From: Gammaproteobacteria bacterium
GTDB taxonomy: Bacteria; Pseudomonadota; Gammaproteobacteria; Xanthomonadales; Wenzhouxiangellaceae
Assembly (NCBI GenBank): GCA_021772975.1
Contig: JAJFKY010000001.1
Span: 124,001-188,000, forward strand
DNA length: 64,000 bases
Reading direction: 5' to 3'
The translations under genes were made by a program, and so were the position numbers. Positions 11,180 through 34,488 of the stretch are shown piece after piece (the stretch's first letter is position 1; every line of letters starts with the position of its first letter). The notes beneath the pieces are model-generated. The model did no database searches and was not told the DNA's origin. It saw only the letters and a program-made list of their open reading frames with translations.

Positions 11180-11331
11180 TCAGCACCGGTCTGGTTACCA
11201 TACAAGTGCCTGATTAAACTGTCGGCAACGCTCGACTGAACTCAGCAGCGTTCCTGTTTCACCGGCAACAGCGTAACCTGGCGCAGGTTATCGTTTATAG
11301 TGATAGCGATTGCCTGGGAAGCAACGCTGCA

Positions 11332-13404: not shown

Positions 13405-13435
13405 ACAGGTCAGCTTTATGACACTACAGTGCTGG

Positions 13436-13984: not shown

Positions 13985-13986
13985 GG

Positions 13987-14673: not shown

Positions 14674-14736
14674 TATGATAAATCCTTTCCTGACTGTCCC
14701 GGCCTGTTAAAGGCCGGGACTCAATGATTAAACGAC

Positions 14737-15390
14737 CTATTCTGTTTCTTCTGTAGGTTGCTGGACTTCTGAGATTGAATCTTCCAGTATGCCCAAGACC
14801 CTGTCCAAACCAGCGGGAATCTCATCCTGAACGGCATGAACTTTGACATCCAGCGAGTACGTTCTATTCACTTGGCTACCGGAAACCGTTGACTTACGTT
14901 TTGAGTAATAGGCAGAAAGCCGCGCACTGCCCCAACCCCAACCTGCTTTAGCACTAATGCTGCCGCCATAAGCTTCGGCTGTTGTATTGCGTTCGTATAC
15001 TGCACTGGTGATTTTTGCATTAAATTGGATGGTTACATCCTCAACGCGCAAATAGGGTATTGGAGCAATCGCAAGAGTCGGTATATGCAGCTCATAAGTC
15101 AATATTTCTTCTGAACCCTCTACATCCTGATCATAATTCGGATTCGTTTTATCATAGGCAAACACTACGGTCTTTGCTTTGCCGGGCTTAGTAGTGGCAG
15201 GTGTTGCGGGATTCGTTCCAGTCGCAGGAACCTCAGGAGTCACCACATCAGGCTCAAACCCAATTGTTTTGATAAAATTGATGGTCGCCATGGCTGATTT
15301 AGCCTGCGCTTCCACAACCGCATTTAATGGTCCGCCTATCATTGCGGAAAAATCAATGCTCGATAATTCTTGTCCGTGATCTAAATTCAT
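14737..15390 (-). CDS. DUF2589-like protein
   Basis: N-terminus LSSIDFSAMIGGPLNAVVEAQAKSAMATINFIKTIGF resembles the DUF2589 hallmark; beta-rich region VEDVTIQFNAKITSAVYERNT and KAGWGWGSARLSAYYSKRKSTVSGSQVNRTYSLDVKVHAVQDEIPAGLDRVLGIL. Confidence 0.75.
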   Translation of the reverse strand: MNLDHGQELSSIDFSAMIGGPLNAVVEAQAKSAMATINFIKTIGFEPDVVTPEVPATGTNPATPATTKPGKAKTVVFAYDKTNPNYDQDVEGSEEILTYELHIPTLAIAPIPYLRVEDVTIQFNAKITSAVYERNTTAEAYGGSISAKAGWGWGSARLSAYYSKRKSTVSGSQVNRTYSLDVKVHAVQDEIPAGLDRVLGILEDSISEVQQPTEETE

Positions 15391-15643
15391 GTTTACATTC
15401 CGTCTTAATACCTACTCTATTTACCATTTGGCTTTTCGGCTACCGCCAACTGTTATCAACCATCTGGATTAAAACGGAGACACAAGACAACTACATCCCT
15501 TACCCCAATAACCCTTGATTCGAAAACAACGTGCAATTAGGTAAAAATATGCATAGTAAATAATTTTATTTACTGAGTATTTTTACTTTGCATTTGTAGA
15601 GGCGACGGCTCAAGAGCAAAGGCAACACCAAAAGCATATATAT

Positions 15644-16606
15644 TTATATTAACTTCATTGCTGAAAATTCCTCATTTCCCGCACCACCAGTGGCTGGCAA
15701 GCCATTAGCTTGTTGATAAGCAATTACCGCCTTGCGTGACTCATTGCCATAAATACCATCGGCATCCATTTTATGCCCGCGGCCTGACAATGCCAGTTGC
15801 AATAACCTGACATCCTGACCACGCTGCAGCGGCCTTTCCACAGCCAAAGTACGTGATCCAACTGGGGGTCCCGAATAGACGCCTTTTGGCGTTGCCGAGA
15901 GTGTGTCCAGGTTAATTTCATGCCCACGCACCACTATCGGCAGTTGCAACGCCCATTCCTTGGAGCTGATCAGTTGTTGAAAAACATTCATCCGGTAGGT
16001 GGTTTTCCTGAGGATGCGGCGGCTCTGGTTGGCCAGCCATTGTCGCCGCTGCTTTACGTATTCACTCAACCATTGCTGTTCATCAACATCACCTGGATAT
16101 CCGACTACGTTTATGGTACGCCGCCGGATCAACTGCCAGGAACCATGTACGATACTGTCGTAGACAATACATAAACCCAATGGCATAGAAATACCCAGCG
16201 AGTTTGCTGAACGCACTGCCCGCTGCCAGTAGTCCTGATCAAAAAATTCATCCTGAGTATCACGCATCACCGGATCATCGGCACAGGCGCGTAACAGGTT
16301 ATGCAGGTGCCAGTCGCCATTAACGGTCGGATTTTTATTGTCGAGATCACCCTGAAACGGAGCCAGCATGTCAGCGAATACTGCGCCACAGTTAGCCCTA
16401 TATTGGCGAACCAGCTTGCCTAAACCACCTGACTGCAGGGTAGTCTGGGAGCGGCCATAGGTGAGCTGGCCAGTATCTCCGGCCAATAGCGTAACGGCAC
16501 TGTAATCACCTAGCACATGGTCCGTTTCAAAAATATTGACGATGGCTTGTGCGGTTTGCACCTGTGTTGATGTGATCATGGAATGCCCCTTGTTTGGTTC
16601 CGCCAA
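15644..16606 (-). CDS. Chitosanase (GH46-like) with C-terminal peptidoglycan-binding domain
   Basis: AIVNIFETDHVLGDYSAVTLLAGDTGQLTYGRSQTTLQSGGL (candidate catalytic Glu and Asp) ... LGLCIVYDSIVHGSW; C-term LQRGQDVRLLQLALSGRGHKMDADGIYGNESRKAVIAYQQANGL is a PG_binding_1-type repeat. Confidence 0.75.
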   Translation of the reverse strand: MAEPNKGHSMITSTQVQTAQAIVNIFETDHVLGDYSAVTLLAGDTGQLTYGRSQTTLQSGGLGKLVRQYRANCGAVFADMLAPFQGDLDNKNPTVNGDWHLHNLLRACADDPVMRDTQDEFFDQDYWQRAVRSANSLGISMPLGLCIVYDSIVHGSWQLIRRRTINVVGYPGDVDEQQWLSEYVKQRRQWLANQSRRILRKTTYRMNVFQQLISSKEWALQLPIVVRGHEINLDTLSATPKGVYSGPPVGSRTLAVERPLQRGQDVRLLQLALSGRGHKMDADGIYGNESRKAVIAYQQANGLPATGGAGNEEFSAMKLI

Positions 16607-17662: not shown

Positions 17663-19822
17663 ATGGCCAAGACAACATCCAAATCTAAACAGCCTGCGGG
17701 TCGTTACAGCGAAGTCAAATCCATTCTGAACAGTATTCAGGGAAAAACCGTTCCCGATTATCAGGGCTTGAAAGCGTTCTGGCTGGATTACGAAACTTTC
17801 CTGTCCGCGGTACTTTACGGGCAGCGCATGATAGCCCCGGGCCCGCACGATGATAGCGCGGACACTGCCGAATCAGAGGATGGTTCCGGCAGTTGCTGCG
17901 GATCAAAGTCTGAGCAGAATCAATCCGCGGGCTGTTGGCCCTCCGGAGGCGGCAGAGACGATAACGGCGGTGGCAGGGATACTTCCAGAAGCGAGCAGTC
18001 TGGTCTTATTAAAGGCCTGCGCGGCCTGGCGCCGTTTGATGGTTCGGTGTTTCCGCCACTGTTGTGGGACGCCAAACGCAGCGCCACTGACTCAGAAATC
18101 AGCACCATTGCCAGCTGGATCGATGATGGTTGTCCCCAGGATGACGTGGATGACGATGAGGTCAGCAGCGAAAAAGAAACACTCCGCCTGCAGGCGAGCA
18201 AGCTGGTCGCGCTGGCTGCCGGCGAAATGAAGCATTCCGTCGCTGAAAAACCCACCAACACCATGCAGCGCTCGGTTAAAGGGCTGCGGGTGCGCAAGGA
18301 AATTGGCTCCATGAGCGAGCAGGAAGTGCAGCGGCTGCGCGAAGCCATTGCCTGTATGCAAACCTATAACGCGCATTGGCAGGACGAACGCAGTTTTGAC
18401 TACTGGGCACGGATTCATGCCAGTTCCTGCCAGCACGGCTGGGAACAGTTTCTACCCTGGCACCGTTTGTACCTGTACTTTTTTGAGCAAATGCTGCAGG
18501 ACTTCGACAGCCAGATCACCCTGCCTTACTGGGCCTGGTCGGATTATGCGGATGTTAACCGCGATACCTTCAACACCGAAAAACTGGATCAGGGCATTTT
18601 ACCGGAGCGCTATGGTTGCTGGATGACCAGCGAAGGCGTCGCCAACCTGGCCGCCACCGGTCTGTTAACTGATAAACAATTAAGCGGTTTGGAGAAACTG
18701 GCCAAAAGCCGTCAGGTATATAACTCCAGTGCACGTTTTCTTAAAGCAGCGGGTGTTGATTACATGGTGGAACTGGATCCCACCACCGGCGGCGCTCAAT
18801 GGACACCGCCGATTGCCGCGATCTATGCAGAGTTGCTGCGGATTAATCCGCTGTGGTTCCCCAACCGCTGGCCAGGCGTGATCGGTTCACCCACCAGTTA
18901 CCCCACCGCGGAAGATATCAACCTGCTGCTGGAAACCCCCAACTGGGCTGAGTTCGGCGGCGGCCCTCTGGATGATCACCACTTTGGTTATCTGGAACAG
19001 GTGCATAACGGCATGCACAATTTTTCCGGTGGGACCAACCCCAATTATCCGGGCCGGGGGGATGGCAAGTGGACTGATTTGTACAACAAGCTGGGTATTG
19101 CCCAGGATCCACAAAATAAAGACAACCCGCCGTATGGCTGGATGGTGGATAACCGGATTACCGCGTTCGATCCCATTTTCTGGGCCCATCACAGCAATGT
19201 CGATCGCATCTGGGCACAATGGCAGAGCACGCATCCGAATGGCAATCCTCAGGCGCTGGATGGCGTGTTGGCACCGTGGTCACTGACCGTCGCGGATGCC
19301 TTGAGCACCCGCACGCTTGGTTATGAATACATGCGCAACAGCTACCACTATCCGACTTCCAGCCAGGTCGGCATGCAGAATTTCAATTCGGAAAAAGCCG
19401 GCGTCAGCCAACAAACGCTGGATGTGTTCCGCAAGGCCGAAGTGCGCCTGCACCGGGTGCAGCGTGCCAACCTGCCTAACGCCAGCATCCGCATATATTT
19501 GAACGACAGTTCCGCCGATGCCAATACCAAAATGCAGGGCAATGATAATTTTGTCGGTGAAATCCAAACCTTCCACGGCACCTGCATGGGTGGTCCCGGC
19601 CACTGCGATATGCCGCTGGATAAAACCCGTCAGTTTGATCAGCGCATGCTGCACCACAACGAGCCACGCAATTACCGCATCGACGCCACCGATGCGGTTA
19701 ACCGGATGCTGGCCGAGGGCGCACAGGATATCAGCGTGCACCTGGTTGCCGTGGGTCTGGATGGCCAACCGGTCGACAATGCGCTGTATCTGGATGGCGT
19801 GTCACTGAACTTTATGGATTGA
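17663..19822 (+). CDS. Tyrosinase-like type-3 copper protein with ~220 aa N-terminal extension
   Basis: CuA IHASSCQHGWEQFLPWHRLYLYFFEQML and CuB GYLEQVHNGMHNF ... DPIFWAHHSNVDRIWAQW; N-terminus has Cys-rich stretch SGSCCGSKSEQNQSAGCW and a cytochrome-like segment lacking CXXCH. Confidence 0.88.
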   Translation: MAKTTSKSKQPAGRYSEVKSILNSIQGKTVPDYQGLKAFWLDYETFLSAVLYGQRMIAPGPHDDSADTAESEDGSGSCCGSKSEQNQSAGCWPSGGGRDDNGGGRDTSRSEQSGLIKGLRGLAPFDGSVFPPLLWDAKRSATDSEISTIASWIDDGCPQDDVDDDEVSSEKETLRLQASKLVALAAGEMKHSVAEKPTNTMQRSVKGLRVRKEIGSMSEQEVQRLREAIACMQTYNAHWQDERSFDYWARIHASSCQHGWEQFLPWHRLYLYFFEQMLQDFDSQITLPYWAWSDYADVNRDTFNTEKLDQGILPERYGCWMTSEGVANLAATGLLTDKQLSGLEKLAKSRQVYNSSARFLKAAGVDYMVELDPTTGGAQWTPPIAAIYAELLRINPLWFPNRWPGVIGSPTSYPTAEDINLLLETPNWAEFGGGPLDDHHFGYLEQVHNGMHNFSGGTNPNYPGRGDGKWTDLYNKLGIAQDPQNKDNPPYGWMVDNRITAFDPIFWAHHSNVDRIWAQWQSTHPNGNPQALDGVLAPWSLTVADALSTRTLGYEYMRNSYHYPTSSQVGMQNFNSEKAGVSQQTLDVFRKAEVRLHRVQRANLPNASIRIYLNDSSADANTKMQGNDNFVGEIQTFHGTCMGGPGHCDMPLDKTRQFDQRMLHHNEPRNYRIDATDAVNRMLAEGAQDISVHLVAVGLDGQPVDNALYLDGVSLNFMD

Positions 19823-19832
19823 GGGACTAATA

Positions 19833-22019
19833 ATGAGCAATGAAACAACCACATCCAATACCACTTTCAAAATTCATCCGGCCATTGGCATTGCACGTCT
19901 CGGTAACAGTGACGAGTTTTATCTGACCCCGGAACAGCCCGGCGCACTGCCGATCGCCTGTGATGCCGATGGTGTCGAGCAGCAGGATAAAAACGGACAG
20001 CCGGTGCGGGTCTCCAGTTTCAAGGAATCCGGCGATTTGTCTAAAGTCAAACGTCAGGCGGCCAGATTCCGTATTTTTGCCTACGACGGTGATGATCAGA
20101 AAACCGGTGAGGAAATCAAAATCGGCGGCAAATACCACTTTGTCGTCACCTCGGCAACCACTGCGCCCACCCCGGTGGAAGGCACGGTCAAGGACATTCA
20201 GTGGACGGTGCATCTGGCCAACAAGAAAAGCACTTGGTACGACTTTATGGAAACCGATGGCATGCATGGTTATTCGGCCTCGCATCCGTTGCGTAATCCG
20301 ACCGTAACCCAGCCGGATTTGCGCCGCCAGATGATTACCGACCCTGGCCCGCAAACCGTTACCTTAAAGTCACCCAGAGCGGCCTTTAGCAAGGGCGAAA
20401 ATCCCGGTTATCCGCAGACCTTTCCACCCGAGGACATCAAGCCCAACCCGATTGATACACTGGGCGAATTGATGGCCAATAAGCAGGGTGATAACCCTCG
20501 CCTGGTGGTACTGGGTGGGCGCGGCAATTCCGGCAGCACCAAGACTCCTGTGATCACCAGTTTCGTTAACAACGACGGTTGGTATGACGATATCTCGGAT
20601 GGCCCGGTCACCGCTAAAATCGCCTACACCTATCCGTTTACCTATACCAATTCGGATGGCAAAAAAGTCACCGAAACCAAAAACGGGGTGATGGAAGTTC
20701 AGGTACCCGCCTGGGTGGTGGTCGGCTATCCGCGCTATGTGCCGCAGATGCTCGATATGATCACGCTGGATGAAGCAATGTACGATGTGTTTGTACGTAA
20801 CTTCCAGTATGCCCCACGGATTTTTGGCGTTGCGCCTTATGACCGTGCCAGCAACACGCCGAAAACCGAGGAGGAAACCGCGCTGTGGCTCAATGACGCC
20901 GGATTTAATCCTGACTATTATCCGAAATTTTATGAAGAAATCTGGCCTATCTTAAGACGTCCGGATTTGTATCAATACACCTACGATTTTGACTTTTTCA
21001 GTGGCGGCGACCCACACAATACCGGCACCGGCGGCAATCTGGATCAGCGGGCATTGTCCACACCACCAAGTGGCGGGCAAGACCCTTATCGTCAGAACCG
21101 TGAATACGTGATTCGCATCATGCGTGAACCATTGCAGACCAATCTGTATTTCAATACCGGCAAAAGCAAAATCAACCCCGACCACAAACCCCGTTTGATG
21201 CCGATGCTGTGCGGCAACAACCCCATTTCCAACACCTCGCCGGACAAATTTCTGATCATGACCCGGACCCAGTTGTTTTTCCTGCGGCAATGGGCGGTGG
21301 GCAAGTTTGTCAATGAGTGCTCGGAATGGGACGAAAGCGATCCCAATTGCACCAACCCATGGTCTGAGCCGCCCACCACCGGCGAAGGCATTGATCGCGG
21401 TGTATTGAGCAATCTGCTCGGCGGTGCTTTTTGCCCAGGTGGCGAGTTCAGCTGGATTATTATCAATCCCGGCATTTACAGCGCGCCCTATCGAATCAAG
21501 CACACCACTTATCAGGCCGGTGCTTTGAGCCTGCCCAAACCCATTGCTGATATCGATGGCAGCCCCGCGCCGAATATTGCCGCGGGCATGGAGCCGGGCG
21601 ATCTGACCAAGTACATCGGCATTCCCTGGCAGGCGGATTTTCACGAATGCACCACACAGAATATTGATGTGACCTATGACAACTGGAACAGTATCTATCT
21701 GTCGTCCACCGGTGACCCGGCCGAACAGCAGATTGCCTATGACATTCCCTGGTGGCCGGCGCATCGTCCCATCATTATTCAGACCGAACAGGGTCAACAG
21801 GTATTCTGGGCATCGGGCATTCCCGATAACTATGCAGGTGATCTGGAAATGGTCCAGCAGTGGAATAATCTGGGCTTTCTGATTGAACCTGTTGATCCGG
21901 CTTCCGGCTTACCGGCCTTCTACCAGATCGAAAGAAACAACGCCGCACTGGGACCACCGACCGCATCCGGACAACGGACCCTGGGCCGATCCAAACGGAG
22001 TACCCGCTATGACCGATAA
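19833..22019 (+). CDS. LodA/GoxA-like CTQ-dependent amino-acid oxidase
   Basis: FKIHPAIGIARLGNSDEFYLTPE N-terminus; GGAFCPGGE Cys and IGIPWQADFHEC Trp separated by 65 residues, same spacing as the CTQ-forming Cys516/Trp581 of Marinomonas LodA (from memory); lodB-like gene downstream. Confidence 0.9.
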   Translation: MSNETTTSNTTFKIHPAIGIARLGNSDEFYLTPEQPGALPIACDADGVEQQDKNGQPVRVSSFKESGDLSKVKRQAARFRIFAYDGDDQKTGEEIKIGGKYHFVVTSATTAPTPVEGTVKDIQWTVHLANKKSTWYDFMETDGMHGYSASHPLRNPTVTQPDLRRQMITDPGPQTVTLKSPRAAFSKGENPGYPQTFPPEDIKPNPIDTLGELMANKQGDNPRLVVLGGRGNSGSTKTPVITSFVNNDGWYDDISDGPVTAKIAYTYPFTYTNSDGKKVTETKNGVMEVQVPAWVVVGYPRYVPQMLDMITLDEAMYDVFVRNFQYAPRIFGVAPYDRASNTPKTEEETALWLNDAGFNPDYYPKFYEEIWPILRRPDLYQYTYDFDFFSGGDPHNTGTGGNLDQRALSTPPSGGQDPYRQNREYVIRIMREPLQTNLYFNTGKSKINPDHKPRLMPMLCGNNPISNTSPDKFLIMTRTQLFFLRQWAVGKFVNECSEWDESDPNCTNPWSEPPTTGEGIDRGVLSNLLGGAFCPGGEFSWIIINPGIYSAPYRIKHTTYQAGALSLPKPIADIDGSPAPNIAAGMEPGDLTKYIGIPWQADFHECTTQNIDVTYDNWNSIYLSSTGDPAEQQIAYDIPWWPAHRPIIIQTEQGQQVFWASGIPDNYAGDLEMVQQWNNLGFLIEPVDPASGLPAFYQIERNNAALGPPTASGQRTLGRSKRSTRYDR

Positions 22020-22467
22020 TTCAAATAGCAATCAAAACGGCGGTGTGCCGGACATTCTGGTCGGCACCTGGACCTATCGCAGTTTTATCAACGATCCGAA
22101 TCTCAGTGCTGATTTTGACTCACTGGAATTCGGCCGCGGCAATATTCAGATATACCCGGCTGCCATGCAGGTTTTTGACGGCCGGATTTACGGGCCGGGC
22201 TGGCAACTCGAATTGCGCGGGGCCATCAGTTATGGCAATCCGTTTAATGTCCGTTTTCAGGGCAAGGGTGTGGTCGGTGGCGCGGAATGGATTTACGACT
22301 ACCGCGGCTATCTGGTTCCCGATTGGGTTAATGGTGTGGCGCAACGCCCTGCGATTGTCGGCTCTATTGTGCGCAGCATTCCACATCCGACCGGGCCGAA
22401 TGACAAGTCCACCGCCCCGGCGGGCGTGGTGGCGTCATGGATCGCCGTCAAGCAGGACGCCATGTAG
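22009..22467 (+). CDS. Uncharacterised 152 aa protein between lodA-like and lodB-like genes
   Basis: ATG at 22009 overlaps lodA-like stop (CTATGACCGATAA). MTDNSNSNQNGGVPDILVGTWTYRSFINDP... beta-rich. Confidence 0.75.
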   Translation: MTDNSNSNQNGGVPDILVGTWTYRSFINDPNLSADFDSLEFGRGNIQIYPAAMQVFDGRIYGPGWQLELRGAISYGNPFNVRFQGKGVVGGAEWIYDYRGYLVPDWVNGVAQRPAIVGSIVRSIPHPTGPNDKSTAPAGVVASWIAVKQDAM

Positions 22468-22504
22468 CTATTGCCCTGATTGATGAACAGCATGATTCAC
22501 CACT

Positions 22505-23671
22505 ATGTCCGTTAAAACCTTTGACGTCATCATTGTCGGTGGCGGTGTCGCCGGGTGCGCAGCCGGCATTGCCTTGAAACGGCTAATGCCAGAACTGACT
22601 GTCTGCATGCTGGAGCGTGACAGCCCGGCGAACGCGGACGACGACACCTACACCAGCACCATCCGGCCACGCATCGGTGAGACATTACCGCCTCAAGTCA
22701 GTATTCCGATGCAGCAACTGGGAATCTGGGCGCCATTCCGACGTGCTGGCTGGCTAAAATCCGCCGGAACTCAGGCTGCCTGGGGCGCGGCCCAGCCGCA
22801 TGTCAACGAGTATATTTATTCTCCCTATGGTAACGGCTGGCATCTGGATCGCCGGCAGTTCGACGCCCTGCTGCTGATGCTTGCCCGACAGCAAGGCGTG
22901 CTGTTGTATGAGCATTCACAGCTGCTCGAAATCGGCCGACAGTCACAACACTGGCGGCTGCAGCTGCGCACCACTGCAGCTGCGCGGGGCATGCCCGAAC
23001 TGAACACAATGACCGCCAGGTTCGTGGTGGATGCCAGCGGCCGTGGCGCCCGTGTAGCTCAACGCCTCGGCATCCATAAGCAGGTTTTTGACAGCCTGGT
23101 CGGCAGTTATCGCTTCTATGCAGCGGCGGACAGCCATCAGGCGGGAAATCACCTATCAGATTCCAGCACCATGATTGAAAGCGTCGCTGATGGCTGGTGG
23201 TATTGCGCAGGCCTGCCGGACAACACTCGGGTCAGCGCGTTGATGACCGATGCCGACCTGGCCCGCGCAAACCAGTATGCTCACAGCGCGGCATTTGATC
23301 AGGCACTGGCGGCCACCCACTTGATCTCAGCCCGGCTCGCCGGCTTGAGCGCAAGCACCGCACCGATCATCACCGCCGCGCATACCCAATGCCTGGAACA
23401 ACTGGCTGGCAACGGCTGGCTGGCAACGGGTGATGCGGCATTTACTTATGACCCATTATCTTCACTGGGCATTTTCAAGGCGCTGCGCATGGCTCTGCTG
23501 GCGTCCTATGCCGTTAAGGATTATTTCAACGGCAAAGATCGTGAACTGGCGAAATATAACCATCTGGGCAAGGCCGAATTTACCCACTATCTGGATAAAC
23601 GCCGTGAATATTACCACCAGGAAACACGCTATACTCAAAACCCATTCTGGCAGAGGCGGCTGGCGGCATAA
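22505..23671 (+). CDS. LodB-like FAD-dependent oxidoreductase (tryptophan-halogenase-fold)
   Basis: FDVIIVGGGVAGCAAGIALKR Rossmann motif, RPRIGETLPPQV, GWHLDRRQFDALLL, WLATGDAAFTYDPLSSLGI; follows lodA-like gene. Confidence 0.88.
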   Translation: MSVKTFDVIIVGGGVAGCAAGIALKRLMPELTVCMLERDSPANADDDTYTSTIRPRIGETLPPQVSIPMQQLGIWAPFRRAGWLKSAGTQAAWGAAQPHVNEYIYSPYGNGWHLDRRQFDALLLMLARQQGVLLYEHSQLLEIGRQSQHWRLQLRTTAAARGMPELNTMTARFVVDASGRGARVAQRLGIHKQVFDSLVGSYRFYAAADSHQAGNHLSDSSTMIESVADGWWYCAGLPDNTRVSALMTDADLARANQYAHSAAFDQALAATHLISARLAGLSASTAPIITAAHTQCLEQLAGNGWLATGDAAFTYDPLSSLGIFKALRMALLASYAVKDYFNGKDRELAKYNHLGKAEFTHYLDKRREYYHQETRYTQNPFWQRRLAA

Positions 23672-24387
23672 TGAGCACCACCAATAAGGACATTGTGGTC
23701 GGGTTCCCGTTATATAACGACGCTACTCTGCTGGATTTCGCGGGCGCCACCCAGGTGTTTGCTTTCTCCGGCGGCTTCAAACCCATCTGGTTGGCAAAAA
23801 CCCTGGCACCCGTGATGACTTCAGAAGGCGTGACGGTTAATCCCGGTTACACTTTCAGCCAACATCCGCGTATTGACCTGCTGTTTGTACCCGGCGGTGA
23901 TGGCGAAGGGGTGGCGGCGAGCATGCTGGATAAAGATTTTCAGCGCTTTGTTAAAAAGGCCGCAAACACGGCTGAATGGAGCGGTTCGGTATGCACCGGG
24001 GCATTTATTATTGCCGCGGCCGGGCTGCTGGATGGCTGTCAGGCGACCACTTACTGGAGTGTATTGAATGTTCTGGATGAATTTCCGGATATCAAGGTCA
24101 ATACCAGAGACTATCCACGCTATATCATCCAACCTAAACACAAACGCTTCAGTGGCGGCGGCGTATCGTCGTCCATTGACCTGGCCCTGCAACTGGTCAA
24201 AGTCATTAACAGTAAAAACGCTGCGGAGATGGCCGACTTATCCATTCAATACGCGCCTGACCCACCGGTACATTCCGGTGATCCGAGTCAGGCAAACAAC
24301 CCGGCACTGGTGGCCAAGGTTCGGAAAAACCAGCAAGACGATTTTATTCAACCCATCATCGATGCCACCTGTCAGGTACTCAACTGA
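23671..24387 (+). CDS. DJ-1/PfpI family protein (isonitrile hydratase-like)
   Basis: IVVGFPLYNDATLLDFAGATQVF, LLFVPGGDGEG, nucleophile-elbow SVCTGAFIIAAAGLLDGCQATTYW; start overlaps previous stop (TAATG). Confidence 0.85.
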   Translation: MSTTNKDIVVGFPLYNDATLLDFAGATQVFAFSGGFKPIWLAKTLAPVMTSEGVTVNPGYTFSQHPRIDLLFVPGGDGEGVAASMLDKDFQRFVKKAANTAEWSGSVCTGAFIIAAAGLLDGCQATTYWSVLNVLDEFPDIKVNTRDYPRYIIQPKHKRFSGGGVSSSIDLALQLVKVINSKNAAEMADLSIQYAPDPPVHSGDPSQANNPALVAKVRKNQQDDFIQPIIDATCQVLN

Positions 24388-24442
24388 CCGGACTGGATAA
24401 TACCGACAACAATTAGAAAATGAATATCATTGGGAGTTTGAT

Positions 24443-27400
24443 ATGTACAAGATGACAGCTCATTGGATTGCCGCTCTGATACTGACACTGGCGATAGCAC
24501 CGGTGCTTCACTGCGCCACCCTGGTTGCCGCCAATACCGGCAAAGGCGTCACTGACCGAACCATCAGGGTGAATATGGTGGTAATCGACCAGACGATCAA
24601 AAACAATCGCCTGGGCGCGGAAATCCCGAATGGCCAGATATACGTTCTGGCGCGTGACGTAGTGCCGTTATCAGCGCCTTATGATGAGCATGGCAATGAT
24701 ACTGATCAGACTTATTCATTGGCCGATCTGCAGGCTGGTGAAGTGCGCCTGCGTCAATACAAACGGCCGCGTCCGATTGTGCTGCGCGCCAATGTCGGTG
24801 ATATTCTGGAAATTCATTTCACCAATCTGATGCAGCCCATCAGCAACCCGACTCCCGCGCAGACCGCACTGAACGACGCCGGGGTACAGGTTATGGGGCT
24901 GGACTGGCTGGACGATGCCAACGCCACCCGCGTATCGCCGGGCCAGTCACATATTTATCGCTATGCAGCCACCGGCGAAGGCGTGTATATGATGTTTTCG
25001 CCGAATGGCAATTCAATCCCCACCAGCCAACTCGATGTTGGCCTGTTCGGCGCGGTTAATGTACAGCCGGCCGAAGCTGAATACTACCGCAGCCAGGTCA
25101 CCGAAGACGATATGGAACTGGCGACTTACCGCGTTAATCAACGTTTTTTAAATACCTGGTGGACCAGCACCGACCCTCAGGTCTGTCAGCGTTATCTGGA
25201 TTCGTCGCAAACCGGATTACCGGAAAATGTTGCAGTCCGGCGGCAACCGGTGGACGAGAACAATGGCTTGATCTGCCCCAAACCGGGACCGGATGTGCTG
25301 TGGGAAATGCGGATACCCACCCGCGAATCAGGTAAGACCGCGTTGCTGTCATCGGTGTTAATTACTTCCGAAGGTTATCTGAATACCCAGCAATCTCAAC
25401 CGGTAATTAACTATACAGCGATGTATCCGGGGGATCACCCCCGCTATGGCTCGCCGGTGTTGAATATGCTGGTCAAAAATACCGCTGACGGCAGCTATGA
25501 GCTGGCCCACTCCGACCTGACCGCGATCATTACCGGACCCGGCGCGGGGCGCTTCCCATACTATCTGAACAGCCCCAGTTTCATTGAAAACCCGGCCACC
25601 CCTGATCGCCGCCAACCGTATCGCGAATTTACCATCGCCTACCATATTTCGCCCAATACCCAACAGGCGTTTGAAATGTTCAATCCGCCACACCCGCTGG
25701 CCAATATGCTGGCAGCAGGCAAAGATGGCTTTGCGGTCAATTACGGTATCGCCGGCATTGCCCCGGAAATTGTTGCCAACCGGATTAACGTCGGACCGCA
25801 GGGTATTAATCAAGACGGCGTTGACCTGTTGTTTGAAGAATTTTTCCTCAGCGCCTGGGCCGTAGGTGACCCAGCCGTGCTGGTCGACAATCCGGCCAAC
25901 ACGGGAACCCGTGCGACCAAGGCACTGTATCCCGATGACCCGTCCAACGTTTATCACAGCTATATGCGCGATCACGTCAAGTTCCGGGTGATGAACGCCG
26001 GTTCGGTGGCCCCGCATGTGCATCACCAGCATGCCCATCAATGGCTGCATACGCCCAACAGCGCCGACGGTCATTATCTGGATAGCCAGATGATCAATCC
26101 GGGCTCAACCTACACCCTGGAGATGACCTATAACGGCAGCGGCAACCGCAACCAGACCGTGGGCGATTCCATTTTCCATTGTCATATCTACCCGCATTTC
26201 GCGCAGGGTATGTGGTCCATGTGGCGGGTGCATGATGTGTTTGAGCAAGGCACCGAACTGGATGTAAGCGGTACTCCGGTCAAAGGCGCCCGCGCCCTGC
26301 CCGATGGCGAAATCATCGCCGGCACGCCGGTGCCCGCACTGGTGCCGTTGCCGGGTCTGGCCATGGCGCCCACACCGGCCAAAGCCTATTTGATTGATAA
26401 CGGCCGCCGCGTGGCGGTTGATCCGGTGGGTGAGAAAGCCAACGGTGAACCGATTTATAAAAACCCCGGTTTTCCGTTCTTTATTCCCGGCGTTGCCGGT
26501 CATCGTGCCCCCCATCCACCGCTGGATTTTGCCTGGCAGGAAAACCCGGACAAAACCCCCAGACTGCTGACCAAAGCGGAAGCCAAGAAAATACCTTTCC
26601 GCGAGGCTGGCGATATCGCCTATCTGGATGGCGGCCTGCCGCGTAATGTGGTGCTGGGCGGCACTCTGGAGCGTGAATTTCATACCCGCTGGGACTTCAC
26701 CAAGGAAGTCGGCAAGATGGTCGCGCTGGAATTGCCGGAAACCGGCACCGCCATCGAACAGGCGGCCATGGATGCGCATGCTATCCGCAGCCATGCGTCG
26801 CATCTGCCCAATGGCCTGCCGGGTAATTTTATTCTGAACGGTTTACCGCCTTCACCGGGGGCCCCGTTTGCCGCGCCCGAAGTAGATGATGACGGCAACT
26901 CCACGTTCAACAAGCGCCGTTATAAAGCCGCGGTGGTGCAGACCGACGTGGTATTCAACAAACAGGGTTGGCACTATCCGCAGCAGCGCTTTATCACCCT
27001 GCTGGATGATGTCAAAGACACCATCGCCGGCGAGCGTCCGCCCGAGCCTTTTTTCTTCCGCTCGGAAACCGGCGAAACCGTTGAGTTCTGGCACACCAAC
27101 CTGGTGCCCAATTATTACGAACTGGATGATTTTCAGGTCCGCACGCCCACCGATATCCTCGGCCAGCATATCCATCTGGTGAAGTTCGATGTGACCTCCT
27201 CGGATGGCGCCGGCAATGGTTTTAATTATGAAGACGGCACGTTCAGTCCAGCTGAGGTGCAGGCCCGGATCGAATCGATCAACAAACAGGGCGGCCTGTA
27301 TGTATTTGATCCCAAGTCCCAGTTCAAATCGGTCCAGCAGAGAAAGCTGACACTGTCTGACTATAGAGATGATTACGGCAACAAACTGGGCAATCCACCA

Positions 27401-29746
27401 CCCGGACAAAACTGGGACGGTGCCCAGACCACCATTCAGCGCTTCGGCACTGACCCGCTGCTTAACCATCAGGGCGAGGACCGTACCCTGCGGACGGTGT
27501 TTACGCACGATCATTTCGGCCCCTCCACCCATCAACAGGTGGGTTTATATGGTGCGATGCTGGTGGAGCCTTCCGGCACCAACTGGTTCAATGCCGTCAC
27601 CGGCGAGCAATTCCCGAGTGAGGACCGTGATGACGGTGGTCCAACCAGCTGGCAGGCGCTGATCGAAGGCCACGATTCAGTCGAGAGTTTCCGCGAGTTC
27701 GCGATTGCCATGGGCGATCTGCAACTGGCCTATACCGCCGACAGCCGCTCCCAGCGCGCGGTGCCGGAGACCATCTGGTTCACCACCACTGGTGACGATT
27801 ACGCCAGTGCTTTGAACAACGGCAAGATTCCAGATGCATTGGCGGCTGAGTTCGACGCCCAGGGCGCGCCCCTGCCACCGGGCGCGACCGTCAAGCCCGC
27901 ACAAACGCCTGACCAATGGATTCTGCAACCCAACAGCCACGACACTTTTTTACTGACCCTCAACACCACCAGCCAACTGGATGTCAGAACCGAAACCATC
28001 AGTGCCTCCTGGGCGGATTTCGATGCCTCCATCTGGCCGCCGACCGCGGCACAGATTGCCGATGCACAGGGCAACGTGGAATCCGGCTATGCCCCCTTCC
28101 CGACGATCATTTCCGATCCGGGCGGCGGCGGCAATATCGGTATCTGGGTCAACAACTACCGCAATGAGCCGCTGGATTCGCGCATTCAGGGCAACGGCAG
28201 CGACAGTATCGCCACCGATCCTTCGTTTGCCTTCAGTTCGATTGAGCGCAGCAACCCGGCACTGAATTCTCAACCCACGCCAGGTGCGCCGATTGGCGAT
28301 GACCCGGATGGTTTCAAATATCCCGGCACCCCGCTGCTGCCGGAAGGTGAGGGCGGAGTGCAGGGCACTGATCCCTACACCCCCATGCTGCGCGCTTATG
28401 CCAACGATAACGTGGAAGTTCGCGCCATCGTCGGTGCGGTCGATTCGGTGCATTCATTTGGTATCCAGGGCGTCAACTGGCATGCCGAACCATCCTTCCC
28501 TGACTCAGGTTTCCGGGATGTGCAGGGCATGGGTATTTCCGAGCATTTTGAAATGCTGTTCAAATTGCCACCCGGTGACGGTGAACGCGCCGGATCGGTG
28601 GACAGACTGTATGCGCCATCCACCTCCAGCATGGGCATGACCAAAGGCGCCTGGGGCATCCTGCGGACTTACGATGAGCAGGTTCCCAATCTGGCCAGTT
28701 TATCCAATAACCCGCCGGGCCAGCACAATGTGTCAGGATTCTACGACCTGCCCTCCGGGCAGCAACCGGATAAGACCTTCAATATTACGGTCTCGCTGGC
28801 CAGCGATGGCAAGTCGCTGCAATATGAGGTGGGTGATCAGTTGATGAGTCCACTGGTACTCAGGGCGGCAGCCGGTGACTGGATCAGAGTCAATCTGACC
28901 AATGCATTAACCGCCGCGCAAGCGGCGACCTTGGGCACCCAGTGGGCCGGTGGCAACAGTGCCAATGCATCATCCAATGCTATTCAACCGGGCTCGTATC
29001 ATGCCTCCGCCAATGTCGGCATCAGCCCGCGCCTGATCAGCTACGATGCGAACCAGAGCAGCGGTTTGAACATTGGTTTGAATGGCGTGACCGATCAACA
29101 ATATCAGACGGTTGCACCGGGCCAGACCCAATCGTTTACCTGGTATGCCGGCAATATGTCGCTGGATCACAACAACCAGCGGGTACTGACGCCGGTGGAG
29201 TTTGGCGGGGTCAATCTGATCACTTCGGATCAGATCCTGCAGACCTCTTATGGTCTGTTTGGCGCATTGGTCATTGAACCCGCGGGTTCGCAATGGGCGG
29301 TGTCTGACAATCACAGCCTGACCGCCAGTATTCAGGATGCCGATGGCAACCTTCTGTTTACGGAAATCGTGATCGCCAATAACAATATCAGCGCCACCAA
29401 TAACAACACCATCGCCGCCAGCGCGGTGGCTGGATCCCAGGTACGCTTCCGGGTATTAAACCCTAACAATGGCGCACCGGGCCAGGTCAATGACAGCGCC
29501 AATGTGATCACCATTGAAGGCCATAACTGGCCGGAAGAGCCTTATGTCCTGGACTCCACGGTGATCAGCAATAACCCGATCACCCAAACCATGGGTACCC
29601 AGCAGGTCACCAGCATCGAAAGCTATAACCTGGTGATTGACTCCGCGGGCGGGGTGGCCAAAACCACCGGCGAGTTCGACTTTTACTATTACCCGAACGG
29701 TCCTGGTACAACCAAACTCGGGACCCTGACGGTAACGCCGGAATGA
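24443..29746 (+). CDS. Giant multicopper oxidase (1767 aa; MofA/MnxG-type candidate)
   Basis: Signal peptide; HVHHQHAHQWLH (~res 523), FHCHIYPHFAQGMW (HCHxxxHxxxxM, ~res 577), GQHIHLVKF (~res 907), THDHFGPSTHQQVGLYGAMLV (~res 1021), several cupredoxin-like domains. Confidence 0.88.
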   Translation: MYKMTAHWIAALILTLAIAPVLHCATLVAANTGKGVTDRTIRVNMVVIDQTIKNNRLGAEIPNGQIYVLARDVVPLSAPYDEHGNDTDQTYSLADLQAGEVRLRQYKRPRPIVLRANVGDILEIHFTNLMQPISNPTPAQTALNDAGVQVMGLDWLDDANATRVSPGQSHIYRYAATGEGVYMMFSPNGNSIPTSQLDVGLFGAVNVQPAEAEYYRSQVTEDDMELATYRVNQRFLNTWWTSTDPQVCQRYLDSSQTGLPENVAVRRQPVDENNGLICPKPGPDVLWEMRIPTRESGKTALLSSVLITSEGYLNTQQSQPVINYTAMYPGDHPRYGSPVLNMLVKNTADGSYELAHSDLTAIITGPGAGRFPYYLNSPSFIENPATPDRRQPYREFTIAYHISPNTQQAFEMFNPPHPLANMLAAGKDGFAVNYGIAGIAPEIVANRINVGPQGINQDGVDLLFEEFFLSAWAVGDPAVLVDNPANTGTRATKALYPDDPSNVYHSYMRDHVKFRVMNAGSVAPHVHHQHAHQWLHTPNSADGHYLDSQMINPGSTYTLEMTYNGSGNRNQTVGDSIFHCHIYPHFAQGMWSMWRVHDVFEQGTELDVSGTPVKGARALPDGEIIAGTPVPALVPLPGLAMAPTPAKAYLIDNGRRVAVDPVGEKANGEPIYKNPGFPFFIPGVAGHRAPHPPLDFAWQENPDKTPRLLTKAEAKKIPFREAGDIAYLDGGLPRNVVLGGTLEREFHTRWDFTKEVGKMVALELPETGTAIEQAAMDAHAIRSHASHLPNGLPGNFILNGLPPSPGAPFAAPEVDDDGNSTFNKRRYKAAVVQTDVVFNKQGWHYPQQRFITLLDDVKDTIAGERPPEPFFFRSETGETVEFWHTNLVPNYYELDDFQVRTPTDILGQHIHLVKFDVTSSDGAGNGFNYEDGTFSPAEVQARIESINKQGGLYVFDPKSQFKSVQQRKLTLSDYRDDYGNKLGNPPPGQNWDGAQTTIQRFGTDPLLNHQGEDRTLRTVFTHDHFGPSTHQQVGLYGAMLVEPSGTNWFNAVTGEQFPSEDRDDGGPTSWQALIEGHDSVESFREFAIAMGDLQLAYTADSRSQRAVPETIWFTTTGDDYASALNNGKIPDALAAEFDAQGAPLPPGATVKPAQTPDQWILQPNSHDTFLLTLNTTSQLDVRTETISASWADFDASIWPPTAAQIADAQGNVESGYAPFPTIISDPGGGGNIGIWVNNYRNEPLDSRIQGNGSDSIATDPSFAFSSIERSNPALNSQPTPGAPIGDDPDGFKYPGTPLLPEGEGGVQGTDPYTPMLRAYANDNVEVRAIVGAVDSVHSFGIQGVNWHAEPSFPDSGFRDVQGMGISEHFEMLFKLPPGDGERAGSVDRLYAPSTSSMGMTKGAWGILRTYDEQVPNLASLSNNPPGQHNVSGFYDLPSGQQPDKTFNITVSLASDGKSLQYEVGDQLMSPLVLRAAAGDWIRVNLTNALTAAQAATLGTQWAGGNSANASSNAIQPGSYHASANVGISPRLISYDANQSSGLNIGLNGVTDQQYQTVAPGQTQSFTWYAGNMSLDHNNQRVLTPVEFGGVNLITSDQILQTSYGLFGALVIEPAGSQWAVSDNHSLTASIQDADGNLLFTEIVIANNNISATNNNTIAASAVAGSQVRFRVLNPNNGAPGQVNDSANVITIEGHNWPEEPYVLDSTVISNNPITQTMGTQQVTSIESYNLVIDSAGGVAKTTGEFDFYYYPNGPGTTKLGTLTVTPE

Positions 29747-29753
29747 TCATGGC

Positions 29754-31637
29754 ATGCTGAATGAGTACCGCTGCTGGCTGAGGGTCATCTTCTGCGGTGG
29801 GCTATTGTTGCCCGCCGCATTATTGGCCGATTCAATCAGCCAGGTGAAAAAAAATGGTGTCAGCGTTGCTTTTGATGTAACGCCGCTGGCATCCGACGTC
29901 CCGACCGAAAGGTTGCGTGCTGACGAGCATGTCTCGATACAGTTTCGCATTCAGGATGCCAATCACCAGCCACTCAGCGGGCTGTACCCGGCGGCCTGGA
30001 TTCACCCCGGCAGCCCGGAAGAGGACGGTGCGGAAGATATCTGCATCAACAAAGCCAAAGCGTTTATCGGCGGCAGCCTGTTATCCCGTGCCGAACTGGA
30101 TCTGAATGTCTACTATGTTTTAACCCTGAATCAGGATGCCACCATCAGCGTGGTCGACCCCCTGTTTGGCTTCGGCGGCTCCAAGCTGCTGACCATGCTG
30201 TCATTAAATGGCGTGGGCTATGACTGGGCGGTGTCGAGCGGTCAGCAACAGGTGTATGTGTCGCTGCCGTCCGCCGATGCCATCGCGGCAATCAACACCG
30301 CCAACTGGCAAATTACCCATCACGCCAGTGATGGTCAGTGGCAGGCGCCGACCACGTTGAAATTGCCGCCCAATCAGGCTTATTTATGGGCTCTGGTGGA
30401 TGGCGGCGTGGCCCTGTTCAACCGCCAGCCGTTTGCGCTGCGGACTGTTATCCCCACCCCGAGCAAGCCTGTTGCGCTGACTTTCTCAGCCGATGGCCGC
30501 TTCGCCTATACCATGACGCATAACCAGCTCAGCGTGATTGATACCGACAGCCTGTCGGTGGCCACCACCATCACGTTGGGCGAGCTGCCGGTATCCATGG
30601 ATTATTCCGTGCTGGCTGAACAGCTGTATATCTCACATGCCGGCAGTGGCGAGATATGGGTGATTGATGGTCAACAACACACCATCAGCCAGATCATCGC
30701 CGCCGAACCCGGCATTGGCATGCTGCGGTTTGCACCCGGTGGGCGCTGGGGCATGCTGGTTAATCCTATGACCGATCGATTGTCGATCATTGATTCAGCC
30801 AAGCAGGCCATCGTGCAAAGCGGCCGGGTGGAAGGCCGTCCGGAATATATCGCTTTTTCCGATAACCTGGGATATATCCGGCATGCGGACAGTTCCAATC
30901 TGTACATGATTACCTTGGACGACCAGAACCTGGGTCGGCCCGGCGCGGATATTCCGACCGTTGATACCCCCGGCGGCGACAGCCCGCCCGGCCTGATAGC
31001 TATACCCAGTGGCAGCGATGGCATTGTGCAGGCGCCCGGCAGCAATGCCGTACTGGTTTCCAATTATCATGACAAGGCGGTGTATTTTTACAAAGAAGGC
31101 ATGGCCGCGCCGATGGGCCAGTTCAATAATTATGGAAAGTTTCCGCGCGCGGTGCTGGCCATTGACCATAGCCTGCGGGAGCGTGAATTACCCGGGGTGT
31201 ATTCAACAACCACCGTATTGCCTGAACCCGGCCACTATCAGGCGATCTATTTTATGGACTCACCGCGGCTGGTGCATTGCTTTGCTTTTGATATTGAGCC
31301 CTCGCTGGAACAGGCTGGGCAACCGCCTGTTGACCAGCTGCTGATCACGCCAATAGTTACTGAGCCTGATCTAAAAGCCGGTCGTGCTGTAAAGCTGGCT
31401 TTTCAGGTTACGTCTCAAGCTGCGGACGCAGCACCGTCAGCCGAACAATATGAGGGCACGATCATTCTGGCGTCCGGGCTTTGGCGGCAACGCTTATCAA
31501 CCGAGGCGAGCACCGACAACACAGTCAGCCTGGAATTTACACCGCCGCTGCCGGGTACTTATTATGTCTATCTCAAGCCTGCCAACAGCCAGACACCTCA
31601 ACATCAGCATAAATTCAGCTATGTTGTTTCTCCATAA
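29754..31637 (+). CDS. YncE/YVTN-like beta-propeller secreted protein
   Basis: Signal peptide; repeats KPVALTFSADGRFAYTMTHNQLSVIDTDSLSVATTITLGELPVSMDYS..., AEQLYISHAGSGEIWVIDGQ. Confidence 0.8.
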   Translation: MLNEYRCWLRVIFCGGLLLPAALLADSISQVKKNGVSVAFDVTPLASDVPTERLRADEHVSIQFRIQDANHQPLSGLYPAAWIHPGSPEEDGAEDICINKAKAFIGGSLLSRAELDLNVYYVLTLNQDATISVVDPLFGFGGSKLLTMLSLNGVGYDWAVSSGQQQVYVSLPSADAIAAINTANWQITHHASDGQWQAPTTLKLPPNQAYLWALVDGGVALFNRQPFALRTVIPTPSKPVALTFSADGRFAYTMTHNQLSVIDTDSLSVATTITLGELPVSMDYSVLAEQLYISHAGSGEIWVIDGQQHTISQIIAAEPGIGMLRFAPGGRWGMLVNPMTDRLSIIDSAKQAIVQSGRVEGRPEYIAFSDNLGYIRHADSSNLYMITLDDQNLGRPGADIPTVDTPGGDSPPGLIAIPSGSDGIVQAPGSNAVLVSNYHDKAVYFYKEGMAAPMGQFNNYGKFPRAVLAIDHSLRERELPGVYSTTTVLPEPGHYQAIYFMDSPRLVHCFAFDIEPSLEQAGQPPVDQLLITPIVTEPDLKAGRAVKLAFQVTSQAADAAPSAEQYEGTIILASGLWRQRLSTEASTDNTVSLEFTPPLPGTYYVYLKPANSQTPQHQHKFSYVVSP

Positions 31638-32214
31638 ATGCTGGCGCTGCCTGGCGGTCATTGCGCTGCTCACCTCGACCAGCCTCGCAGTGGCTGTCAC
31701 ACCGGTTGCACAACAACACTCGATTCCAAACACGCCGGTGCTCAACCAGGCGGGCGATGATCTGCGCTTCTACAACGACCTGATCAAAGGCCGCACAGTG
31801 GCGATCAATTTTGTATTTACCCGTTGTGGCATGGTCTGTCCGCTGCTGGGTTTTCGCTTCGGTCAGTTACGCCAGCAGCTGGATAAAACCCCGAATGCGG
31901 CGGTGCAGCTGATTTCGATCAGCACCGATCCCAACTATGACACACCGGCAAGAATGCAGGCCTGGGCCGAGCAATTTCATACCGGCGCCGGCTGGACTCA
32001 GGTGACCGGCAACAAACAGGACATTGATCATCTGTTAAAGTCACTCAAGGCTTTCAGCGCCGACAAGCAGGACCACAGCAGCCTGGTGCTGCTGATCGAC
32101 GATCAACGCAATGAATGGAAATGGATTGATGGCGCAAGCGATCCACAGGTTATTCAGGATGCCCTGGCAGCATGGCGGGCGCCGGATCAAGCCGCAGTCG
32201 AGTCCAGCCGGTAA
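31621..32214 (+). CDS. SCO1/SenC-family copper chaperone
   Basis: In-frame ATG at 31621 (overlaps previous gene by 17 bp); GRTVAINFVFTRCGMVCPLLGFRF CxxxC motif, ISISTDPNYDTPARM. Confidence 0.88.
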   Translation: MLFLHKCWRCLAVIALLTSTSLAVAVTPVAQQHSIPNTPVLNQAGDDLRFYNDLIKGRTVAINFVFTRCGMVCPLLGFRFGQLRQQLDKTPNAAVQLISISTDPNYDTPARMQAWAEQFHTGAGWTQVTGNKQDIDHLLKSLKAFSADKQDHSSLVLLIDDQRNEWKWIDGASDPQVIQDALAAWRAPDQAAVESSR

Positions 32215-33523
32215 CGCATCCAACGGCGTTCGCCTGGCTGCCTGTTGGTTTGCGTCGCTAGTTTTCAGCACCCAATTACCTGCCGATACCGGCACGGATA
32301 TTTACCAGCAGGGCATCACCGAATCCGGGCAGGCCAGTATCGGCGCCCAGCAAACCACAGCATCGGCCAGCCTGTTCCCCTGCATCAACTGCCATGGTGA
32401 ACGCGCCGTGGGAAGCAAAGAATCCGGCGTCGCCGCACCCAACATCACCTGGTGGCAGCTGACCCAGCCTTACCGCAAAGACCTGGATGGCGGCCGGCCA
32501 CGCAACCCCTATGACAAGCGCCTGCTGCAACGGTTATTAACCCAGGGCATTGATTCAGACGGCCAGTCGCTGGCCGCGAACATGCCGCGTTATGACCTCA
32601 ATGAGATTGAGATTGATGCGCTGATCACCTACCTGCAGGACATTGCCCGACAATCTGTCAGCGGCGTAAGCAGCGATGCCATCCACCTGGGACTGCGGTT
32701 GCCTGATAAAACGGGACTGGCCGAGTCCATGACGATCACGGTCAATGCATTGGTCGATAATATCAACGCAGCAGGTGGTATTTATGGCAGACAATTGCGC
32801 TTGCATGCGTTGCCCCAGGCACCACTTGCTGAACCGGTGTTTGCCGTCATTGACCTGAGCATGTCGGAACATCAGTCCAGCATGACGGATCAAGTGACAC
32901 TGGGCATTTTTGAATCACGCGGGGACAGTGACTTCGCTTATTTTTTATATCCGCATCCAGCCAGCTATGCGCAGCAACAATCAACTGTTGCCATCGAGCG
33001 TGGCTGGCAGGTTATTGATCTCGTTGATGAATCGGTACTTAACCAACTGAATCAATCCAGCTCCGCTGATGACCGGTTGATCGCTATACTGCACCGTCAG
33101 CAATCGATTCCGCTACTGCAACTGCTGAATAGACTTAAGCATTTACAGCGCGCTCCGATCATTCTGACCGACTCACTATCACCAACACAGCCAGCGTCAA
33201 TAAAAAACTATCCGGCGCCGATTTATCTGCTGACCCCACCGGGTCCGGAGTCGGTTTCCCGGGCAGGCCAGCTGGAATATGCTCAACTGGCACGGCAGTC
33301 GGGTTTCTCCGATGGCCATCTGCAGCCCAGGCTGTGGGCCTTGACGCTGATCAAGTTGCTGACCACGGTGCTGGAGCAATCCGGCAAGCACCTGAGCCAG
33401 CAGGTTTTTATCGAAACACTGCAGAGCCAGGTCGATTTAGCTACCGTCTTCGGCCCGTTATTAAGCTACTCCGCCAATCGCAGAGTGGGTAGTAACAGCA
33501 TGATCCTGGTGCAGATCAACTGA
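32159..33523 (+). CDS. c-type cytochrome fused to type-I periplasmic binding protein (Peripla_BP_6-like)
   Basis: FPCINCHGERAVG (CXXCH) followed by IDALITYLQDIA, then AESMTITVNALVDNINAAGGIYGRQLRL typical of branched-chain amino-acid binding proteins. Start 32159 chosen over 32111; uncertain. Confidence 0.75.
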   Translation: MPWQHGGRRIKPQSSPAGNASNGVRLAACWFASLVFSTQLPADTGTDIYQQGITESGQASIGAQQTTASASLFPCINCHGERAVGSKESGVAAPNITWWQLTQPYRKDLDGGRPRNPYDKRLLQRLLTQGIDSDGQSLAANMPRYDLNEIEIDALITYLQDIARQSVSGVSSDAIHLGLRLPDKTGLAESMTITVNALVDNINAAGGIYGRQLRLHALPQAPLAEPVFAVIDLSMSEHQSSMTDQVTLGIFESRGDSDFAYFLYPHPASYAQQQSTVAIERGWQVIDLVDESVLNQLNQSSSADDRLIAILHRQQSIPLLQLLNRLKHLQRAPIILTDSLSPTQPASIKNYPAPIYLLTPPGPESVSRAGQLEYAQLARQSGFSDGHLQPRLWALTLIKLLTTVLEQSGKHLSQQVFIETLQSQVDLATVFGPLLSYSANRRVGSNSMILVQIN

Positions 33524-33735: not shown

Positions 33736-34488
33736 ATGAATATCAATCGCCATATGCGCCTTTTCAGCAGCTTGCTGCTTGGTTGTTTAATCTGCACTTC
33801 CGTCTGGAGCCAGAGAGATGGCACAGCCGGCCTGTTTGTACAGGCTGGACAGGCCAGCACACCGAATCCACTGACAACCGTGCCTACCCCCACCTCTTCG
33901 GGCCCGGCAGCCTGCATTCATATTAATAATATCGATAGCCTGGATGGACTGGATGATCCTGATAACGTGGTGCTGGATTTTTTCATCGGCGCCGGCAATG
34001 AATTAACCGGCCTGTCATGGGACATTAATATTGCCACCGCGGGAGTAAGCTGGTTATCCGACGCAACCATTCAGTTTTCCAGCTCAGACGGTTCCGCCGA
34101 CCCGAATGCCTTTAATCTGGCGCCTGGTTTTGGACAGAATATGCCCGGCGCCATGGATTTCAGTTCCAATGGCATCGTGCCCTTTGCCAGCATCCCGATG
34201 AACAATGTGGTGGTCAATGCCGACGGTATATTGCGCCTGCAGTTTTTTGAATCGTTTGATGATGTCAGTGATGTGCCTGATGCGATCTGGAACGAAGCAG
34301 CCAACAGCAGCGTCTGCCCCGGGATTTTTCTGCAGTGCAGTGATCAGATATCCTGCGGTTGGGTGGTTGATCTGGCGCCACCGCCACCTATCCCCAGCTT
34401 GTCCTCCTGGGGTATCTGGGTATTACTGCTGCTGTTGCTGAGTGCCGGCCTGATCAGTTTGACAGGCTGGCGTGACCAGCGGGGCTAG
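33736..34488 (+). CDS. Secreted protein with IPTL-CTERM-like sorting signal
   Basis: N-terminal signal peptide; C-terminus PPPPIPSLSSWGIWVLLLLLLSAGLISLTGWRDQRG (IPxLSxWG - TM - basic). Confidence 0.75.
   Translation: MNINRHMRLFSSLLLGCLICTSVWSQRDGTAGLFVQAGQASTPNPLTTVPTPTSSGPAACIHINNIDSLDGLDDPDNVVLDFFIGAGNELTGLSWDINIATAGVSWLSDATIQFSSSDGSADPNAFNLAPGFGQNMPGAMDFSSNGIVPFASIPMNNVVVNADGILRLQFFESFDDVSDVPDAIWNEAANSSVCPGIFLQCSDQISCGWVVDLAPPPPIPSLSSWGIWVLLLLLLSAGLISLTGWRDQRG

Follow-up and report, generated by a model that had tools for sequence, protein, structure and literature searches.

A MnxG-type multicopper oxidase module adjoining a group ID LodA operon in a Wenzhouxiangellaceae genome: a possible chimeric operon

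Why should a tyrosinase, a LodA-like quinoprotein and a giant multicopper oxidase (MCO) stand in one file of closely packed genes? The question is raised by nine same-strand genes at 17663-33523 (+) of a 64,000-nucleotide stretch of contig JAJFKY010000001.1, from a gammaproteobacterium of the Wenzhouxiangellaceae (assembly GCA_021772975.1); the whole stretch is called the window below. Our analysis divides the nine genes into two modules: module A comprises the tyrosinase, the LodA-like protein, a protein of 152 amino acids (aa), a LodB-like protein and a PfpI protein, and module B the giant MCO, a beta-propeller protein, an SCO protein and a cytochrome c. The simplest reading is that a MnxG-type module occupies the MCO slot of module A. 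The original prediction knew of no description of the combination; most of it has nevertheless been described, since group ID LodA operons (PMC4417212) and MnxG/MofA clusters (PMC8218464, PMC5566968) have been published, and only for the join was no precedent found. The fusion of a group ID-type operon with a MnxG-type module is new, no precedent having been found in genomes or in the literature, and it was seen once.

All nine open reading frames (ORFs) are present without internal stops, the largest intergenic gap is 55 bp and several gene pairs overlap, which bears out the tightly packed plus-strand arrangement that had been predicted. The predicted gene identities and integrity of the active sites were likewise confirmed by family matches and by intact copper, cysteine tryptophylquinone (CTQ) and haem motifs. 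The features are as follows.

17663-19822 (+): tyrosinase, 719 aa, type-3 copper domain and family-specific N-terminal region (PF00264, E 2e-31)
19833-22019 (+): LodA-like CTQ quinoprotein, 728 aa, group ID (LodA_N/LodA_C; tree clade)
22009-22467 (+): 152-aa protein with no assigned family, predicted small beta-barrel (homologue search and AlphaFold2)
22505-23671 (+): LodB/GoxB-like flavoprotein, probable CTQ maturase (NF038171, E 2e-71, below the equivalog cut-off)
23671-24387 (+): DJ-1/PfpI family protein, optional in module A elsewhere (PF01965, E 3e-14)
24388-24442 (+): junction of modules A and B, 55 bp
24443-29746 (+): giant MCO of the MnxG/MofA kind, 1767 aa, signal-like N-terminus (NF041487, PDB 9bxa)
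29754-31637 (+): exported beta-propeller/lactonase-like protein (TIGR02276), kept beside the giant MCO in relatives
31621-32214 (+), start possibly 31564: SCO1/SenC copper chaperone (PF02630, E 5e-18; CxxxC motif)
32129-33523 (+), start possibly 32111 or 32159: mono-haem c-type cytochrome protein (CINCH haem site)

Within module A, the tyrosinase gene is separated from lodA by 10 bp, lodA overlaps the 152-aa gene by 11 bp, 37 bp follow before lodB, and lodB overlaps the PfpI gene by 1 bp. Module B begins 55 bp after PfpI on the same strand; its MCO and propeller genes lie 7 bp apart, the SCO gene overlaps the propeller gene (stop at 31637) from either of its starts, and all usable cytochrome ATGs (32111, 32129 and 32159) precede the SCO stop at 32214. 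The GC content at third codon positions is even over the nine genes (0.59-0.66), the window holds no ambiguous bases and the locus lies on one 333-kb contig, all of which, judged from the assembly sequence alone, disfavours an assembly artefact at the join. When the N-termini were read by eye, a signal-like hydrophobic start was seen only in the MCO, propeller, SCO and cytochrome and in none of the first five products; hence, the two halves probably act on opposite sides of the inner membrane.

The first module corresponds closely to a known system. In the group ID LodA operons of Campillo-Brocal et al. (2015), genes for a tyrosinase, a LodA-like and a LodB-like protein and an MCO are accompanied by a small uncharacterised gene; such operons were found in Bradyrhizobium (e.g., Bradyrhizobium japonicum USDA6) and in other phyla (PMC4417212). 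The window shares this make-up, with the small gene lying between lodA and lodB, an MCO in the operon, and conserved CTQ cysteine and tryptophan. Moreover, the small gene is more than 50% identical among members of the published group, and the window gene shows 50-74% identity, although it is longer (152 against 138-142 aa) and accompanied by PfpI, which is optional elsewhere. A search for the small protein over 85,488 species genomes found relatives encoded at 65 loci, to which whole-genome searches added two, giving 67 annotated loci. Among the 38 of these with lodA, a tyrosinase is present in 35, lodB in 36, PfpI in 9 and an ordinary MCO of ~560-860 aa in 24, and the gene order of module A recurs in dozens of genomes from several phyla. 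Since PfpI recurs 3' of lodB in other module A loci, the module boundary was placed at PfpI.

The catalytic parts of module A are conserved. The tyrosinase scores 110 bits against PF00264 (cut-off 22.6), and its six copper-binding histidines (H252, H258, H267, H448, H452 and H510) as well as C256 of the CxH motif are invariant in 18 relatives. In an alignment, the tyrosinases of module A operons have an N-terminal region in common, which contains a near-invariant CC motif, perhaps a copper-binding site, and a 'PFDG..FPPL.W...WIDDGCP' segment that lacks a haem motif; the model of this region is of moderate confidence (pLDDT 73) and gave no PDB match. The LodA-like protein matches LodA_N (E 3e-52) and LodA_C (E 2e-40), and its CTQ residues C606 and W641 are conserved in all 50 aligned LodA-like proteins. 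A maximum-likelihood tree places it in a clade of 34 LodAs from tyrosinase/small-gene operons (support 100/99), which is recovered in 100% of bootstrap trees and separate from 17 further LodA/GoxA-like proteins. As this tree does not include the sequences of the published group ID, the assignment to that group is based on the shared operon make-up. The nearest relatives in the tree come from a Rhodothermales metagenome-assembled genome and a Flavobacteriaceae genome and not from the order of the window's genome, a pattern suggestive of horizontal transfer. The protein reaches 314 bits against the lysine epsilon-oxidase LodA equivalog NF038172 (cut-off 600), and the LodB homologue, found at the expected position, 241 bits against the LodB maturase equivalog NF038171 (cut-off 400). 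As a separate observation, lodA on a Mesorhizobium huakuii plasmid (L026:11989-14633) is annotated as two overlapping ORFs, maybe because the gene is disrupted or because a frameshift arose in sequencing.

The 152-aa protein has no Pfam or NCBIfam match. It is 50-74% identical to nearly all relatives and shares their position between lodA and lodB where lodA is present. Of the 67 small-protein loci, 29 are without lodA; of those 29, an MCO is present in 19 and a tyrosinase in 14. In Sinorhizobium and Rhizobium, the gene lies directly 3' of an MCO gene, often before a tyrosinase gene, and in Burkholderia it follows a tyrosinase gene, lodA being absent in all three. In two further genomes (G572, L146:4573-6809; G706, L148:10043-12213), it adjoins, instead of a tyrosinase, an exported protein of 580-600 aa with one 'SC[VI]TCHARAG' haem-type site and no Pfam match, which constitutes a third partner type. 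Since the small protein accompanies a tyrosinase or an MCO without lodA in many genomes, the candidate role of a LodA/LodB maturation factor is weakened, and the protein is probably not a LodA/LodB factor. Its AlphaFold2 model is all beta (pLDDT 88) and found avidin/streptavidin barrels as the best PDB matches (probability near 1, E 0.03 or worse, i.e., weak), suggesting a possible resemblance to avidin-like barrels.

Module B likewise has relatives of its own. The giant MCO matches MnxG (NF041487, E 1e-262) and Bacillus MnxG (PDB 9bxa, E 4e-75) with its HxH regions aligned; the HxH runs lie at 525-532, 579-585, 909-911 and 1022-1024. Hence, it belongs, by sequence, to the MnxG/MofA superfamily, and Mn(II) oxidation is predicted only. 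PF07731 is matched only below threshold (16.3 against 20.4 bits) and PF07732 not at all, whereas MCOs of published group ID operons carry both pfam07731 and pfam07732. The propeller protein scores 28.9 bits against the beta-propeller repeat TIGR02276 (cut-off 27.85). The cytochrome has a single CxxCH site (CINCH) and weak matches to PF13458, PF00034 and PF13442; this product, which weakly resembles periplasmic binding proteins, is conserved in module B of relatives. The complete, colinear MCO-propeller-SCO-cytochrome set occurs without an adjoining module A in G572 and, with a second SCO gene, in G045 and G017; these stand-alone sets define the module B boundary. In other genomes the set is rearranged. 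In a sample of the order, 8/398 genomes have a match, and in a sample of the class 9/387; the genome of the window is among those counted, as are a few matches that are weak or incomplete.

The known clusters nearest to module B resemble it in part. The mnxG operon of Pseudomonas putida GB-1 contains a giant MCO of the same family, a lactonase-family beta-propeller and an SCO protein (PMC8218464), as does the window; no SurA-type gene was seen in the window, its MCO stands behind a lodA/tyrosinase module, and it scores 875 bits where the MnxG cut-off is 3100. The mofA/ompB clusters hold the cytochrome MofC and an SCO1/SenC chaperone (PMC5566968), so that a large MCO with a c-type cytochrome, and SCO1/SenC next to a cytochrome in the ompB cluster, are shared features; unlike the mof operon, the nine genes include no MofB peptidyl-prolyl isomerase, and any Mn or Fe chemistry of the window MCO is putative. 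Two observations on other genomes may be added. In G793 (Sulfidibacter corallicola, L215), two giant MnxG-type MCO genes adjoin divergently, with a third copy elsewhere on the chromosome (L214). In G437, a second, shorter tyrosinase gene (L217:3380-4879) lies ~5 kb upstream of a giant MnxG-type MCO gene (10224-16385), with genes for a sigma/anti-sigma-like pair and for a CxxCH protein in between.

What, then, does the join represent? The usual laccase-size MCO of 560-860 aa is absent from the window cluster, and the giant MCO, together with its propeller, SCO and cytochrome, stands directly behind module A instead. The possibility that remains of a laccase gene precede the tyrosinase gene was rejected, as tblastn gave no match in the window; elsewhere, the same genome encodes a laccase-like MCO (G000:C8:379022) that is 33% identical to the operon laccase of the Nitrosomonas type. 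We therefore propose that the nine genes form a chimeric operon in which a MnxG-type enzyme fills the laccase slot of a group ID LodA operon, a reading to which we give about even chances. It is supported by the fact that group ID operons already hold an MCO (PMC4417212), as do 24 of the 38 loci with lodA and the small gene, and by the intact copper, CTQ and haem motifs, the LodA tree and the co-occurrence of the two modules across genomes.

Several results weigh against this proposal. The join was found in the window's genome only and in none of the 67 small-protein loci, and none of the 38 other lodA loci has a giant MCO, propeller, SCO or cytochrome. Conservation of all nine genes together, which the original prediction had made a test of its claim, was thus not found, although it holds within each module. 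The operons of the closest LodA relatives (L052 and L054) are module A operons without any MCO, and hence an empty MCO slot need not be refilled. The giant MCO, with 874.9 bits, falls far below the 3100-bit cut-off of the MnxG equivalog NF041487; other giant MCOs that were fetched likewise remain below it (913-1410 bits). Shuffled versions of the region contain promoter-like sites at least as often, which does not help the case for a single transcript. Finally, alphaproteobacterial module A genomes are without module B, and the enrichment in Acidobacteriota described below is partly taxonomic, since the baseline is higher in the class of G789.

The best surviving alternative is a chance tandem, i.e., two independent functional operons, one of group ID LodA type and one of MnxG type, that came to lie next to each other by insertion and do not function jointly; this is rather doubtful, though a serious competitor. 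No other genome was found with the modules adjacent: adjacency is excluded for at least several kb in G789, G810, G798, G793 and G437, and contigs are too short to tell in G787, G788, G792 and G806. Genomes with both modules keep them far apart, by ~0.9 Mb in G793 and by ~1 Mb on one chromosome in G437, and module A is missing from most genomes with module B, all 15 that were tested being without a small-protein match. On the other hand, the two modules of the window share one strand, and a sequence scan of the 55-bp gap between them found no evident terminator and no promoter beyond chance. Moreover, carriers of module A have module B elsewhere more often than the background. A strong giant-MCO match was found elsewhere in 8 of 34 module A genomes; in Acidobacteriota, module B occurs elsewhere in 7 of 13 module A carriers against 2 of 128 other sampled genomes (Fisher p 3e-7, on the untrue assumption that the genomes are independent), a comparison confounded by taxonomy and genome size. 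The taxonomy-matched evidence is weaker: within the class of G789, all three known module A carriers of the sample have module B, compared with 4 of 47 other genomes with a strong match or 6 of 47 with any match (p 0.002-0.004, with the same assumption of independence). Hence, carriers of A tend to have B, and not the reverse.

If the chimeric operon is real, its products might work together, largely with the activities known from their families. LodB would hydroxylate W641, which would then join C606 to form the CTQ cofactor of LodA; LodA, using O2, would oxidise an amine or a non-lysine amino acid and release H2O2; and the tyrosinase would oxidise phenols to o-quinones, the 152-aa barrel possibly serving the tyrosinase/MCO side. 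SCO would load copper into the giant MCO outside the inner membrane. There, the MCO may use O2 to oxidise Mn(II) or else phenolic compounds made by module A, the cytochrome being its presumed electron partner. A stronger version of the proposal is a functionally coupled, presumably co-transcribed nine-gene system, in which a MnxG-type metal oxidase replaced the laccase and so coupled the formation of Mn(III/IV) to the chemistry of quinones and H2O2; the Acidobacteriota that recurrently carry both modules would then show the same partnership in unlinked form. We advance this version tentatively and consider it unlikely.

Possibly the operon is instead biosynthetic: a cytoplasmic LodA and tyrosinase would oxidise an amine or phenol precursor to a quinone-derived pigment or metal chelator, with the MCO finishing the oxidation after export. 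This agrees with the recurrence across phyla of a cytoplasmic-looking tyrosinase, LodA and small protein together with an exported MCO, and with the likeness of the 152-aa barrel to ligand-binding avidin-like folds. Nevertheless, the operon contains no dedicated transporter or conjugating enzyme and the fold match is weak, so that we judge this explanation improbable.

Least probable of all is the secreted antibacterial or cross-linking machine of the original prediction, with H2O2 from LodA, quinones from the tyrosinase and an MCO oxidising Mn or cross-linking proteins outside the cell: LodA and AlpP are antimicrobial (PMC4417212), the LodA of Marinomonas mediterranea is reported as secreted and commonly regulated with the tyrosinase and laccase of that organism (PMC2855505), and four window products have signal-like N-termini, but the first five do not, the score of the window LodA lies far under the equivalog cut-off for lysine oxidases, lysine oxidase activity was absent from a group ID culture that was assayed (Saccharophagus; PMC4417212), and no matrix or adhesin substrate gene lies in the operon. 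The Marinomonas genes also differ in lying at separate loci and in encoding a group IA LodA with lysine oxidase activity, and the laccase PpoA was reported as not involved in Mn metabolism (PMC2855505).

The genes around the nine were also inspected. Directly after them, at 33736-34488 (+), an exported protein without a family match ends in a IPSLSSWGIWVLLLLLLSAGLISLTGWRDQRG tail resembling a sorting signal of the IPTL/PEP-CTERM type. On the opposite strand (15644-16606, -), ~1 kb upstream of the tyrosinase gene, a GH46 chitosanase-like domain is fused to a peptidoglycan-binding domain. Farther downstream, 43936-48591 (-) encodes a protein of 1551 aa that is rich in DUF7933 and ASPM-SPD-2-Hydin-type Ig repeats.

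The small conserved protein of group ID operons is herein tentatively reassigned to the tyrosinase/MCO side, where it occurs in the absence of lodA. The locus, which has the look of a single transcription unit, also offers a testable hypothesis on the purpose of both Mn(II) oxidation and the group ID operons, namely that the MnxG-type enzyme takes over the task of the laccase of other group ID operons.

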